NCBI RefSeq assembly: GCF_900185725.1
Contig: NZ_FYAU01000036.1
Location: forward strand, 620,001-684,000
Origin: Stappia sp. TSB10P1A
Lineage (GTDB): Bacteria > Pseudomonadota > Alphaproteobacteria > Rhizobiales > Stappiaceae
Reading direction: 5' to 3'
DNA: 64,000 nt
The notes under the pieces: generated by a model
What the model was told of the DNA's origin: nothing
Seen by the model: only the letters and a program-made list of their open reading frames with translations
The model's database searches: none
Position numbers and translations under genes: made by a program
Shown: piece by piece, positions 47,026 to 51,760 of the stretch
Layout of the letters: each line of letters opens with the position of its first letter
Position numbering within the stretch: the stretch's first letter is position 1

Positions 47026-47402
47026 GCGCGCCTCCTCGCTCCCGTCTTCTTTCTCACCGTCTCGATCCCCTGTCGCCTCGCTGCCCTTGCACCGTTCCCC
47101 TTGCACCGCCCCCTCCTCGGCGTCTTCCCGGGCAAGCGAAGCGCGACCCGGAACCGGCGAGCCACGGCGGTTGCGGCATCTTTCGGGAGCGCGCCTCCTG
47201 CGCCCCCGGCCCGACCCCACATCTGCGTTTGCGCCGTCCGGGAGGGCGCAATGAAGGGACAGCGCGCGGGAGGACAGCCGGTGGATGGAGCTCGGCCGTG
47301 CGTCCCCGCCGCCGCTCTGGAAACCAATAGGCCCCGGCGCGCGCTTCGCTTGGCCGGGGTGACGGCAGAGGGGATGCGAGGCCTTTGCCATTCTCTTCGG
47401 CT

Positions 47403-47847
47403 GTCATCCCGGCCGCGCGTCAGCGCAGAGCCGGGAACTATTGGCAACCCCGGCAGGCGTGAGGCGGGGCGGCGTCGCCTCCCTCTCGGACGTCATCCCG
47501 GCCGCAGGCGAAGCCGGAGAGCCGGGAACCATTGGCAACCTCGGCAGGCGTGAGACCGGGCGGCGTCGCCTCCCTCTCGGAGGTCATCCCGGCCGCGCGC
47601 AGCGCAGAGCCGGGAACCATTGGCAACCTCGGCAGGCGTGAGGCCGGGCGGCGTCGCCTCCCTCTCGGAGGTCATCCCGGCCGCGCGCAGCGCAGAGCCG
47701 GGAACCATTGGCAACCCCGGCAGGCGTGAGGCGGGGCGGCGTCGCCTCCCTCTCGGAGGTCATCCCGGCCGCGCGCAGCGCAGAGCCGGGAACCATTGGC
47801 GACCCCGGCAGGCGTGAGGCGGGGCGGCGTCGCCTCCCCCAAGGCTG
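47403..47847. repeat. 88-bp tandem repeat, five copies
   Basis: GTCATCCCGG starts at 47403, 47492, 47583, 47671 and 47759, giving periods of 89, 91, 88 and 88. Each unit has a palindromic half (GTCATCCCGGCCGCGC...GCAGAGCCGGGAACCATTGG) and a spacer half (CGGCAGGCGTGAGG..GGCGGCGTCGCCTCCCTCTCGG). Units 3-5 are almost identical, which implies recent expansion. The array stops at 47847, where a REP-like element takes over. Confidence 0.9.
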
Positions 47848-47878
47848 TCATACCTGCGCAGGCAGGCGTCCAGTATCC
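47842..47878. repeat. REP-like element, second orientation
   Basis: Reverse complement of the element at 39169-39206, attached to the end of the 88-bp array. Confidence 0.7.
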
Positions 47879-48119
47879 GCCGGGGCGTGTTGTTGCGCAT
47901 CGGCCGCAGCTACGGCCCGGGCAGCCTCCGCCCGCCTCTTTTCCGCCGGCACCGCCCCCTTCGCCCACCTCTCCTTGCGTCATTCCGGACAAGGCGAAGC
48001 CGCGCACCGGAACCGGCGAGCCACGGCGGTCGTGGCATCTTTCGGGAGCGCGCCTCCTGCGCCCCCGGCCCCATCCCGCATCTGCGCTCGCGCGCCGGCC
48101 GGGAGAGCACCCCCCCCCT

Positions 48120-48551: not shown

Positions 48552-48689
48552 GGGCAGCCATCAGTTTTGGGCGGTCTTTGGGCGGTCTTCGAGCTGCCTT
48601 CGAGCGGAGCGCGAAGCGGAGCGGACTTTCGTGACCCGCTATATAGTCCGTGCGGCAAGAGATGGGAACCGGGGGGCTGTTGCTGTTAG

Positions 48690-48893
48690 CAGAAGGTGCT
48701 CGACGCATGGCTGGTCACTTGCAACACCGAGCGCCCGCATCTGGGCCGCAACATGAACGGGCGAACCCCGCTTCCGGCCTTCACCGAAGGCCTGACCGGC
48801 AAGCCGTCGCAACCAATGCAGAAACCGAAAGGAGACAGGCTGACAGCCAACCCGAAACAGGCTTCAATGCCCCACGAAACCCGCGCCGCCTGA
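48690..48893 (+). pseudogene. IS481-type transposase C-terminal remnant
   Basis: An in-frame fragment beginning after a TAG at 48687, reading KVLDAWLVTCNTERPHLG, RNMNGRTPLPAF and a lysine/proline tail ending at TGA. NTERPHLGRNMNGRTP is the hallmark C-terminal end of IS481-family transposases. The catalytic domain is absent, so only the last 65 or so residues remain. It sits exactly at the border where GC-rich core DNA gives way to AT-rich sequence. Confidence 0.85.
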
Positions 48894-48995
48894 AACCGCT
48901 TCAAAACGCGGTACTGTCAGGGGAATACCGTCTCTGTACATCCAGAATTCTGCAACACCTAAATTTCTGCTCTCGCCCTGCAATTTACGCCTCAC

Positions 48996-50378
48996 TCAGC
49001 GACTCTTCCTGTTTGCGGATGCCGCCTTCTGTTTCTCCCATAACCCGTAGATGTTTTCCGACAATCTAAATATTTGGTGCTCGATGCGACTATCATCTAT
49101 CGAAAGCATCAAGGTGTTCGCAAGCATCGGGAATTTCAAACGAACCTGATCAACGGTAACATCGTACGTCAAAACTACAATCGAAATCTCCCCTTTAACG
49201 TTTCTAGCAAAAATTGTTTCCCGCTCCTTCTGAAGCCATCCCTCCGACTCCAAATACTGACTGGATACGAAAATTATGGCTACCTCAGCCTTCATTATCG
49301 CCTGCTCCATACCGCTAAGCAGACTCTCGCCTGTTATGAATTGCTTGTCGCTAATTATATCAACATCAGCGTCAACCAAAAAGGATATTATCCTGTCCGC
49401 GATCTTCTTGTCTAAGTGGCTATACGAAAAGAATACCTTAGGACGGATCGAAGCATCTTTCTCATAGGCCTCCTCGATCCTAGTCAGCACATCGATAAAA
49501 GCCAACCTAGCCGACCTCGGGTACCGCTCGTCAGCTTTGATAAAAGCAATCGCCTCATTTGCGCACTGTGAAAAATCTGCAGGATTGTCTTTTTGAAGAA
49601 GGCAAGAGACACAGAGCAACTCAGGCTTCGTCTTGAACGCTCCACTGAATCCAATGTCGAAATGTCTTTTCAGATAATCTAAAAAAATCGGTTCACTCAA
49701 CCTATAAAACGATGGAATTATACTTTCCAAGCAATAAAAGTAACGCGTAACAAGATAACACCAAGCAACTGCCCTGAAGTGCTTTTCATTGAAAACATCC
49801 ATGTGAATATGTATATCTGCCAATATTTTTTCAAAATCCCTAGTTATATATCTGATATTCTCCACCATTTTATCTTCTTCTTGATAGCTACGAAATAAGG
49901 TATACTGCGAGTGACGCATATAGATTTCATATTGCGAAACATCAAATTTTGCGATTTCATTCGATGAAATCATATACTCCCACTCAGGAGTGTATAAAAT
50001 CTGATCCAGCACACTCTTCGCTTGCCCGAACCGGTCCTGCAAAAAAAGACTTGAAGCATACCTCGAGAAAACCAATGGATCTTTGAAAACAATAGCATTC
50101 ACGTCACGGGCAGCAGCCGCTTCTTGAAACGCAATTTCATCTTGGGCCATAATATATGAGTAAATTCGCTCCGCTATCATAAGTCCTGGTCTATCATCAA
50201 GCGCAGCCATCTTGAGACTAATAGGTCCAATCTTCTCCTTCAGATCCATATCCTCTATCATAGACTTAGTTACTTCACTCACCTCCCTGCTCCGCATCGT
50301 TAGAAACATATACCCAAGTTGTAAAAAAATTAACCTCTCTCTCCCCCAGTCCCGATAGCTTTCAGAAATATTTTTCAT
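48996..50378 (-). CDS. TIR-domain protein with N-terminal helical domain
   Basis: A 460-residue protein. Residues 1 to about 310 are helical and not recognised, perhaps TPR-like (QLGYMFLTMRSREVSEV; ASSLFLQDRFGQAKSVLDQIL). Residues 315-440 form a TIR domain: VFFSYSHLDKKIADRI as strand A and helix A, DADVDIISDKQFITGESLL (BB-loop region), AEVAIIFVSSQYLESEG and W381-L-Q-K-E385, which matches the WCxxE-type position of the NADase glutamate. It is coupled by ATGA (50375-50378) to the RelA/SpoT gene. AT-rich and unlike its surroundings. Bacterial TIR domains commonly destroy NAD or make cyclic signals in antiphage defence. That role here is inferred. Confidence 0.85.
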   Translation of the reverse strand: MKNISESYRDWGRERLIFLQLGYMFLTMRSREVSEVTKSMIEDMDLKEKIGPISLKMAALDDRPGLMIAERIYSYIMAQDEIAFQEAAAARDVNAIVFKDPLVFSRYASSLFLQDRFGQAKSVLDQILYTPEWEYMISSNEIAKFDVSQYEIYMRHSQYTLFRSYQEEDKMVENIRYITRDFEKILADIHIHMDVFNEKHFRAVAWCYLVTRYFYCLESIIPSFYRLSEPIFLDYLKRHFDIGFSGAFKTKPELLCVSCLLQKDNPADFSQCANEAIAFIKADERYPRSARLAFIDVLTRIEEAYEKDASIRPKVFFSYSHLDKKIADRIISFLVDADVDIISDKQFITGESLLSGMEQAIMKAEVAIIFVSSQYLESEGWLQKERETIFARNVKGEISIVVLTYDVTVDQVRLKFPMLANTLMLSIDDSRIEHQIFRLSENIYGLWEKQKAASANRKSR

Positions 50379-51517
50379 GTTTTTCCGCCCTCACCCTCAC
50401 CAAAAGGCCGCTTAATTTGGACATAAGCTTCATAAATCTTATTATAAATTTTTCGCATATCTTCGTCGACGCTGGCGCCGTCTTTGCCGATCAGGGATTG
50501 ATACAACTCCCCCGCTTCTTGCACGAGACGCAGCGCCTTGTCTTCAGTATCGAAATAAACTGCCCTGACCTTACTAATATCTTTATTCGCTCCCGTGTAA
50601 TAATACGAATACTCTTCAACGGTTTTACCGGAAATATTTCGTATCACGTCCCTTAGATCGTCGATAGCACTATAGTGATACTTTAGGGCAGCAAAAGCGT
50701 TTCGCAGAAGCCCAACTTTTGGATCGCTCTCCGATATCAAACCAGACTTTATTTTCTCATAGACAAACCGATGCTCTTCGGATGACCATAGATGCTCTAG
50801 AGTTGTCCTCAATTGACATTCAATTGGGAATCCGACGATTAGACCCCTCTGCTCTTCGCTCATCTCTCCATAAAGTTGCTCCAGCGTCTGCGCCTCGGCA
50901 ATATATCGATTTTCTCGGGATGTTGCTCGAAAGTTCAGCAACTTATCGGAAGAGCCTAGCCAAGTCCGCTCCGCTCTCGTAAAATTTAGATAGCAATGAA
51001 GAGATTCATAGTTTGTGTATTTTGTTTCATCAGCAGGCTTACCATTATCCTCCTTCAATCCCAGTTTTGTTACCATTCTCATATAGCGAGATTCTCGATT
51101 TTCATATTTTCTAAACGGAGCACTATACAACTCAAATCCGCTATCAAGAATAGTAAGTTCTTCATACTGAAGAAGCGCCTTAAATGTACTAATGAGAGCA
51201 GATTCATCAATGCAAATTATACGGCAGCCTATGAAATCCTTAACTATCTCCTGAAGTCTAATTTCACCAACACCTCCTGATCGCTTCATTTCCTTGAGGA
51301 TTTTATTGAGCGCAGACAGGGAACCTTTCTTTCTGACCTCAAAAATTATATCACCCTTCCTATCCAGTGTATTTATCATCCCAATGAGCTCGTATCTAAT
51401 TCTATTTTCTATGTAATTGAGAAAGCGCTGGTTTTCATCGGATTCATACTCACTAGTAAATTTTTTTTCAGAGTATTTAAGGAATTCGTCGATCGGATAC
51501 CGCTTATTAAACATCAT
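50375..51517 (-). CDS. RelA/SpoT-domain protein, partner of the TIR protein
   Basis: A 380-residue protein with a RelA/SpoT nucleotidyltransferase fold. The motifs line up: VRKKGSLSALNK (61-72), DFIGCRI (94-100), YTNYESLH (167-174), ECQLRT (233-238) and HLWSSEEH (242-249), the last three being the synthetase-type G-loop/Glu-Gln-Arg signatures. No HD hydrolase, TGS or ACT domains are present, so this is a small alarmone-synthetase type protein. The C-terminal 130 residues are helical (VRNISGKTVEEYSYYY region) and not recognised. First gene of a two-gene operon with the TIR protein. It may make a nucleotide signal or modify nucleotides or RNA, by analogy with known toxic RelA/SpoT-domain proteins. 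Confidence 0.87.
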   Translation of the reverse strand: MMFNKRYPIDEFLKYSEKKFTSEYESDENQRFLNYIENRIRYELIGMINTLDRKGDIIFEVRKKGSLSALNKILKEMKRSGGVGEIRLQEIVKDFIGCRIICIDESALISTFKALLQYEELTILDSGFELYSAPFRKYENRESRYMRMVTKLGLKEDNGKPADETKYTNYESLHCYLNFTRAERTWLGSSDKLLNFRATSRENRYIAEAQTLEQLYGEMSEEQRGLIVGFPIECQLRTTLEHLWSSEEHRFVYEKIKSGLISESDPKVGLLRNAFAALKYHYSAIDDLRDVIRNISGKTVEEYSYYYTGANKDISKVRAVYFDTEDKALRLVQEAGELYQSLIGKDGASVDEDMRKIYNKIYEAYVQIKRPFGEGEGGKT

Positions 51518-51544
51518 TTATCACATCCGCATTTTATATTGGAT

Positions 51545-51760
51545 TTATGGTGAAAACTCTCGATCGAAAGACCTCACGCTCTCCAACACTATTGGGCCAT
51601 CTCCACCGTCACGAATAAAACAAACTGCCTTGCCGCGACATCTTCGCGCTAATTTGCGTTCTAGGTGGCTCGACTTTTGGGGCCAATCAAGCCTTATCCC
51701 GTTCTTGGAAATATAGCGTCTAATGCCGGCCGTATTCAACTCGCAATACCTCAAAAACAA
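51545..51760 (-). CDS. Possible small ORF upstream of the RelA/SpoT gene
   Basis: A 71-residue frame that would start at a TTG and end 27 bases before the RelA/SpoT ATG. It contains RRYISKNGIRLDWPQKSSHLER and GKAVCFIRDGGDG, which read like real protein. The start abuts the terminator at 51750-51799 and no good ribosome site is seen. It may be a decayed gene end or a third small member of the operon. Confidence 0.3.
   Translation of the reverse strand: MFLRYCELNTAGIRRYISKNGIRLDWPQKSSHLERKLARRCRGKAVCFIRDGGDGPIVLESVRSFDREFSP

Follow-up and report, generated by a model that had tools for sequence, protein, structure and literature searches.

The window analysed here is a stretch of 64,000 nucleotides from Stappia sp. 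TSB10P1A (contig NZ_FYAU01000036.1, positions 620,001 to 684,000). It contains two overlapping genes, one for a RelA/SpoT-type synthetase (P0001) and one for a protein with a TIR domain (P0002). Judged from their sequences, these are most likely a new combination of known parts in which a conflict-type RelA/SpoT synthetase has a new partner. The explanation that we favour, with a probability of roughly 40%, is that the pair was acquired horizontally and forms a two-enzyme conflict module resembling abortive-infection or toxin-antitoxin systems. Both enzymes look intact. As the pair is a single instance, the label 'defence system' is one that we infer.

P0001 (380 amino acids) is encoded at positions 50,375–51,517 and P0002 (460 amino acids) at 48,996–50,378, both on the minus strand, and the stop codon of the former overlaps the start codon of the latter in the four nucleotides ATGA (50,375–50,378). 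The genes have a guanine-plus-cytosine (GC) content of 41.0% and 41.8% respectively (40.4% and 46.6% at third codon positions). They lie within an insertion of 3,078 bp (48,677–51,754) with a GC content of 43.6%, as against 70.4% for the remainder of the window. The two open reading frames (ORFs) with these coordinates, strand and coupling overlap, and their AT-rich character within a GC-rich chromosome, were as claimed in the initial annotation of this stretch. A search of the genus covered the Stappia genome itself and 13 congeners, and the corresponding site was retrieved from all 13. In the four closest congeners (L037–L040) DNA similarity extended up to window position 48,675–48,676 and began again from 51,755–51,760, with 27–36 bp between the two similarity edges in place of the insertion. 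The remaining nine aligned over both flanking genes but at no position within 48,677–51,754. Given its low GC content and its absence from this site in all 13 congeners, the two-gene module is, on these sequence comparisons, recently acquired foreign DNA.

P0001 was identified as a RelA/SpoT-type synthetase because of its active-site columns and its SYNTH fold, the Pfam match to RelA_SpoT (E 1.7e-5, 25.5 bits) being just below the 27-bit cut-off. The sole other Pfam row was RmuC (E 0.056), no hydrolase domain was found with Pfam, and NCBIfam gave no match. An alignment of 69 rows was made from P0001, 67 proteins of viral contigs and one Bacillota synthetase. All 14 of its invariant columns are kept in P0001, as R62, K64, K72, D94, R99, Y170, S172, H174, E233, Q235, R237, W244, H249 and Y253. 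The comparison of these residues with relatives, which the initial annotation had proposed, thus bears out its description of a RelA/SpoT protein with its motifs and without a hydrolase domain. The G-loop glycine, present in 61 of the 69 rows, is replaced by N169. The Stappia genome also encodes a long Rel (C49:137793, a 741-amino-acid frame), which rules P0001 out as the housekeeping enzyme. YXXY, the form of the autoinhibitory motif of toxSAS and CapRel, occurs at 303 and 362 of P0001, but 60% of shuffles of that region contain one and it was dropped as evidence; across relatives the motif is commoner than expected (27 of 167, against 12.8 expected).

The AlphaFold model of P0001 built from the 69-row alignment had a mean predicted local distance difference test score (pLDDT) of 66.7 and a predicted template modelling score of 0.57. 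Ten-residue pLDDT means were 72–92 across residues 11–120, and the model was weak at 126–142, at 182–211 and in the helical C-terminus, where confidence is low. The SYNTH domain is placed at about residues 9–260 and the helical C-terminus at about 262–368. The top PDB match in Foldseek was RelP (E 3.5e-7). VIA-align gave Z scores of 13.7 for RelQ (177 residues, 3.6 Å), 13.0 for RelP, 10.4 for CapRel (170 residues, 3.3 Å), 8.2 for Tas1 and 6.6 for FaRel2. The structure prediction suggested in the initial annotation recovers, for P0001, the SYNTH fold. For the C-terminal part the only matches were to short helical segments in unrelated proteins (Z ∼5). In BFVD a single match, to a RelA/SpoT protein from an uncultured phage, fell under E 0.001.

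RelP and RelQ are thus the closest solved folds and they are also the best sequence-profile matches, but P0001 is longer, is only 14–20% identical to them in the structural alignments, is foreign to its genus and has its gene coupled to a TIR gene. CapRel and FaRel2 have the SYNTH fold and the active-site residues in common with P0001. Excerpts of PMC11782079 and PMC9712102 describe toxSAS as toxins neutralised by a partner or a fused domain, and excerpts of PMC9712102 describe CapRel as a fused toxSAS antiphage protein. By motif spacing, residues R64, K66, S70, K74, D90, R95, Y128, E145 and Q147 of FaRel2, as given in excerpts of PMC11782079, are identical in P0001, and S68 of P0001 is among the matching positions outside the invariant set. 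R77 of FaRel2 becomes K75, again by motif spacing. P0001 is close to CapRel in length (380 and 373 amino acids). The CapRel alignment is confined to residues 9–267 of the P0001 model, and where CapRel has its pseudo-zinc-finger antitoxin domain the P0001 C-terminus, which lies beyond that alignment, is modelled with low confidence as helices. Unlike CapRel and FaRel2, P0001 has a TIR protein as partner, and neither of them was among the matches of sequence searches made with P0001 and with the alignment A1.

The TIR domain of P0002 extends over about residues 313–440 and was matched by Pfam TIR_2 at 315–408 (E 3.8e-13, 50.4 bits). W381 and E385 align with the W-x-x-x-E of Cat1, which places the glutamate where the initial annotation had put it. 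For residues 1–312 Pfam gave no match even at E values as high as 10, in keeping with the large N-terminal domain of no assigned family also described there. This N-terminus was found in the Stappia genome and had no credible relative elsewhere among 299 genomes, one match at E 0.008 over 85 residues being taken as chance. P0002 showed no SAVED, STING or SLOG domain. Its only NCBIfam match was to a retron-TIR model, on the TIR part and far below threshold (36.3 bits against a cut-off of 600). In PADLOC the best match was the candidate PDC-S66 (E 3.3e-12, residues 303–431). Two ideas about the N-terminal domain were rejected. A TPR fold was dropped because 26 of 500 shuffles attained its best position score of 7 of 8, and this score fell elsewhere than the site that had first suggested TPR. 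A link to the C-termini of two RelA/SpoT fusions (L036 and L062) gave hhalign E values of 0.38 and 0.4 and a best BLASTP E of 0.23, none of them significant.

If the pair is a conflict module as we favour, P0001 and P0002 would be made together and form a resting complex, with the large N-terminal domain of P0002 serving as both sensor and restrainer. A phage trigger would free the complex, P0001 would then transfer pyrophosphate to a nucleotide or a tRNA, the TIR domain would consume nicotinamide adenine dinucleotide (NAD+), and the growth of the infected cell would stop. By analogy, we lean towards regulation through such a complex over a diffusible signal because related synthetases have varied sensor-like or DNA-associated partners, and because the host's own Rel would make an ordinary alarmone a poor infection-specific signal. 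The conflict module draws support from the foreign insertion, the complete synthetase site and SYNTH fold, the W381/E385 of the TIR domain and the gene overlap. Further support comes from the relatives: two related alignments found synthetases at 49 and 61 viral loci, others are present on small plasmids, some pair with a ParA-like ATPase, DndB or NA37, and PADLOC includes a family of relatives, PDC-S33, as a defence candidate.

Related synthetases, common on viral contigs and plasmids, are mostly solitary. At the viral loci 84 of 112 RelA/SpoT ORFs were 331–400 amino acids long and 67 of the 112 had no same-strand neighbour within 60 nt. Solitary genes for proteins of 357–389 amino acids were also seen on a 3.5-kb Klebsiella plasmid (L065), in a Bacteroides record with phage genes (L069) and on a 5.1-kb Paracoccus plasmid (L070). 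The first of the recurrent partners is a ParA-like ATPase (AAA_31, ∼340–390 amino acids) encoded directly upstream of a synthetase of ∼220–250 amino acids with a gap of mostly −4 to +13 nt (L109:2897-4766, L113:4017-5791, L071:2850-4540 and viral L289–L294 and L296). The ATPase was tested with Pfam in L109, L113, L289 and one more locus, taken as L290, and was assigned in the others by size, position or eye. The short synthetases of these pairs, among those tested, cluster together in the tree. A DndB gene lies directly upstream of a RelA/SpoT gene of the PADLOC type PDC-S33 at L303:2199-6065 and L306:2391-6339 (Pfam E for DndB 6.2e-7 and 3.1e-13). Each pair is adjoined by a convergently oriented desulfurase gene, for which a DndA/SspA match was tested in L303 only. 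The RelA/SpoT gene of L303 and L306 thus sits in DNA-phosphorothioation loci. A gene for the NA37 nucleoid-associated protein overlaps a RelA/SpoT gene at L145:3690-5773 and L151:3690-5761, in two genomes of different families. These recurrent partners look like sensors or DNA-associated proteins and not like killing effectors.

Other arrangements of RelA/SpoT genes were seen. Fusion L132:4041-6563 encodes 840 amino acids with RelA/SpoT, TPR and RyR domains, and two large proteins (L300:1557-4631, 1024 amino acids, and L301:4134-7118, 994 amino acids) have no Pfam match outside their RelA/SpoT part. Tandem pairs of RelA/SpoT genes (∼390–470 amino acids each, mostly 0–58 nt apart) occur in L147, L148, L149, L153, L154 and L159–L164, and their two copies form separate tree clades. 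A SIR2_2 gene and a RelA/SpoT gene on one strand in Fusobacterium vincentii (L064:2058-4606) were not counted as a parallel because an unassigned gene lies between them. In the tree, a quick one of 148 rows, P0001 grouped with six RelA/SpoT proteins of 458–682 amino acids including that of genome G592 (Shimodaira–Hasegawa-like approximate likelihood ratio test support 91). Its branch is very long (2.96 against a median of 0.33) and its position is consequently unsure.

At the left end of the insertion lies a truncated transposon remnant on the plus strand (48,677–48,945), comprising the C-terminus of a transposase and one transposon end; it is matched in part, at 79% and 78%, by two diverged segments of another contig of the same genome. 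An IS481 remnant adjoining the genes had been claimed; the truncated remnant is indeed present, and by its transposase motifs it is probably IS481-like. The region 5′ of P0001 within the insertion (51,518–51,754, minus strand) gave one weak sigma-70-like match (51,739–51,710), which does not amount to evidence for a promoter. Outside the insertion, at 47,400–47,890, successive stretches ∼88–91 bp apart match one single congener segment, so a tandem repeat of ∼88 bp seems to be present there.

Recurrence of the pair was the main check proposed in the initial annotation. Relatives of P0001 were found in 1 of 61 genomes of related organisms and 1 of 385 genomes of the class, in both cases the Stappia genome itself, and in 2 of 398 genomes of the phylum, the second being G592 (the three samples overlap). 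The G592 relative is a RelA/SpoT protein of 639 amino acids, 24–28% identical, on a 5-kb contig where no TIR was detected. P0001 had no relatives in plasmids (tblastn, E 1e-3 and E 10) or phages, and none was confirmed in IMG/VR with P0001 or with alignments A1, A2 and A4. Alignment A2 found one locus among the 596 stretches listed from genome contigs, an ordinary Bacillota synthetase in whose genome P0002 had no match. The matches of A1 in 12 of 149 Bacillota genomes were all short frames with partial model coverage, and they were included in the TIR scan described below. P0002 had two matches in plasmids, to its TIR part only, and none in phages or IMG/VR. When 120 genomes were searched with the RelA_SpoT family, housekeeping Rel proteins dominated the output and P0001 was missed even in its own genome, and this route is thus insensitive to P0001.

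To extend the reach of the search, profile A4 was made from the SAS-type RelA/SpoT domains of P0001, the G592 protein and ten plasmid relatives. It matched in 56 of 279 genomes sampled from the phylum and in 12 of 275 from the class (the Stappia genome counted in each). A TIR profile made from P0002 and two plasmid TIR proteins was applied to the 7,558 ORFs of 230 stretches, comprising 79 and 11 stretches around the genome matches, 110 viral loci and 30 earlier loci. No TIR was found at E 0.05 in any of the 230, although more diverged TIRs could escape. As a control, profiles of P0002 alone or of P0002 and one of the two plasmid proteins recovered the left-out TIR proteins (28–29% identical to P0002) at E <= 2.3e-7. 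A few of the stretches share one gene, others are truncated at the end of a contig, and no RelA/SpoT ORF was detected in L185. Pfam scans covered 60 of 72 same-strand neighbours (12 short ones were dropped) and 28 further neighbours, mostly viral, and no TIR was present in the 25 of 87 and 25 of 43 Pfam families listed.

Several of the results weigh against a conflict module. No second RelA/SpoT–TIR pair was found, within the sensitivity of the searches, in plasmids, phages, IMG/VR, the sampled genomes or the 230 stretches. No defence genes were identified near the pair. The genes flanking the insertion are conserved in the genus and it is thus an isolated insertion and not a defence island. 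The predicted model of P0002 alone had a pLDDT of 42.5. PDC-S33, whose status as a defence candidate is implied by the PADLOC library, matches L304 over its full length and also matches L303, L306, L063 and L187, but its match to P0001, the best of a few weak PADLOC rows for this protein, covers 20 residues only (226–245, E 0.013). The interpretation of the initial annotation is thus upheld in part: for the parts, the overlap, the foreign origin and the absence of such a pair from the papers listed (see below), and not for recurrence or for the signal-maker logic.

The alternatives differ mainly in how the two proteins are related. A reading from signal maker to effector is possible. In a CBASS- or Thoeris-like system of this kind P0001 would, on infection, make an unusual nucleotide, not ordinary ppGpp, that binds the N-terminus of P0002 and triggers the destruction of NAD+. 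Intact nucleotide-transferase and TIR sites within one operon are consistent with this, N169 in place of the G-loop glycine might alter the acceptor, and RelA domains are named in excerpts of PMC7159879 among the nucleotide-generating domains of conflict systems, so the general idea of a RelA fold in such systems has already been published. The W-x-x-x-E TIR of P0002 is common to the TIR effectors of CBASS, Thoeris, CRISPR (Cat1) and retrons, but these differ in that the partner of P0002 is a RelA/SpoT-type synthetase. P0001 matches RelA_SpoT and none of the CD-NTase models that CBASS would call for, and the insertion holds two genes only, neither matching SIR2 or SLOG, and hence no ThsA of Thoeris. 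Moreover, the N-terminus of P0002 has no match among known nucleotide-sensor families, the TIR-containing models of PADLOC align mainly to the TIR part of P0002, ordinary (p)ppGpp from the host's long Rel would fire the system in starvation, and neither the ParA-like ATPase nor DndB nor NA37, which recur beside related synthetases, is an obvious killer. We consider this alternative unlikely. Likewise unlikely, and slightly more so, is its more specific form, in which P0001 would produce a nucleotide only on infection and a sensor domain of a new kind, joined to the TIR NADase, would read it; if true, a stringent-response synthetase fold, and not a CD-NTase or a TIR, would make an immune second messenger.

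The two genes might instead be unrelated cargo overlapping by chance on a mobile fragment, each acting alone. That the pair never recurs in the searched data, and that so many related synthetase ORFs (67 of 112, above) stand apart from any same-strand neighbour, would suit this explanation, but the four-nucleotide overlap and the similar low GC content of the two genes argue for joint inheritance, and we regard chance association as unlikely too. A classical toxin-antitoxin pair, with P0001 a toxSAS-like toxin, P0002 its antitoxin and the TIR domain only a scaffold or sensor, is improbable. Adjacent coupled genes are what such pairs have, as the ATGA overlap provides here, and toxSAS are neutralised by a partner or fused domain in the excerpts cited above. 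P0002, with 460 amino acids and W381/E385, is nevertheless unlike the small antitoxins in those excerpts (PMC11782079, PMC9712102). The toxin-first gene order is also not usual for such pairs. The adjoining truncated transposon and the very long branch of P0001 might point to a remnant in decay that is no longer expressed, on a fragment damaged by a transposon. This is very improbable, as neither frame is interrupted and no checked active-site position has been lost.

In phage conflict, the known RelA/SpoT enzymes are mostly toxins that act by modifying tRNA or ATP. Among the papers listed from the PubMed Central open-access library (in two of the listings 20 of 58 and 30 of 263), none describes a pair of RelA/SpoT and TIR proteins in its title or abstract start, in agreement with the earlier statement that no named system has such a pair. 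If the favoured conflict module is real, an operon coupling a synthetase to a TIR NADase would mean that NAD-depleting immunity has taken up the stringent-response fold, and with so small a pair it could be tested whether a nucleotide of the alarmone type gates a TIR. The occurrence of synthetases with different partners, the ParA-like ATPase, DndB and NA37, suggests that modular synthetase systems form a larger set that has been little charted.

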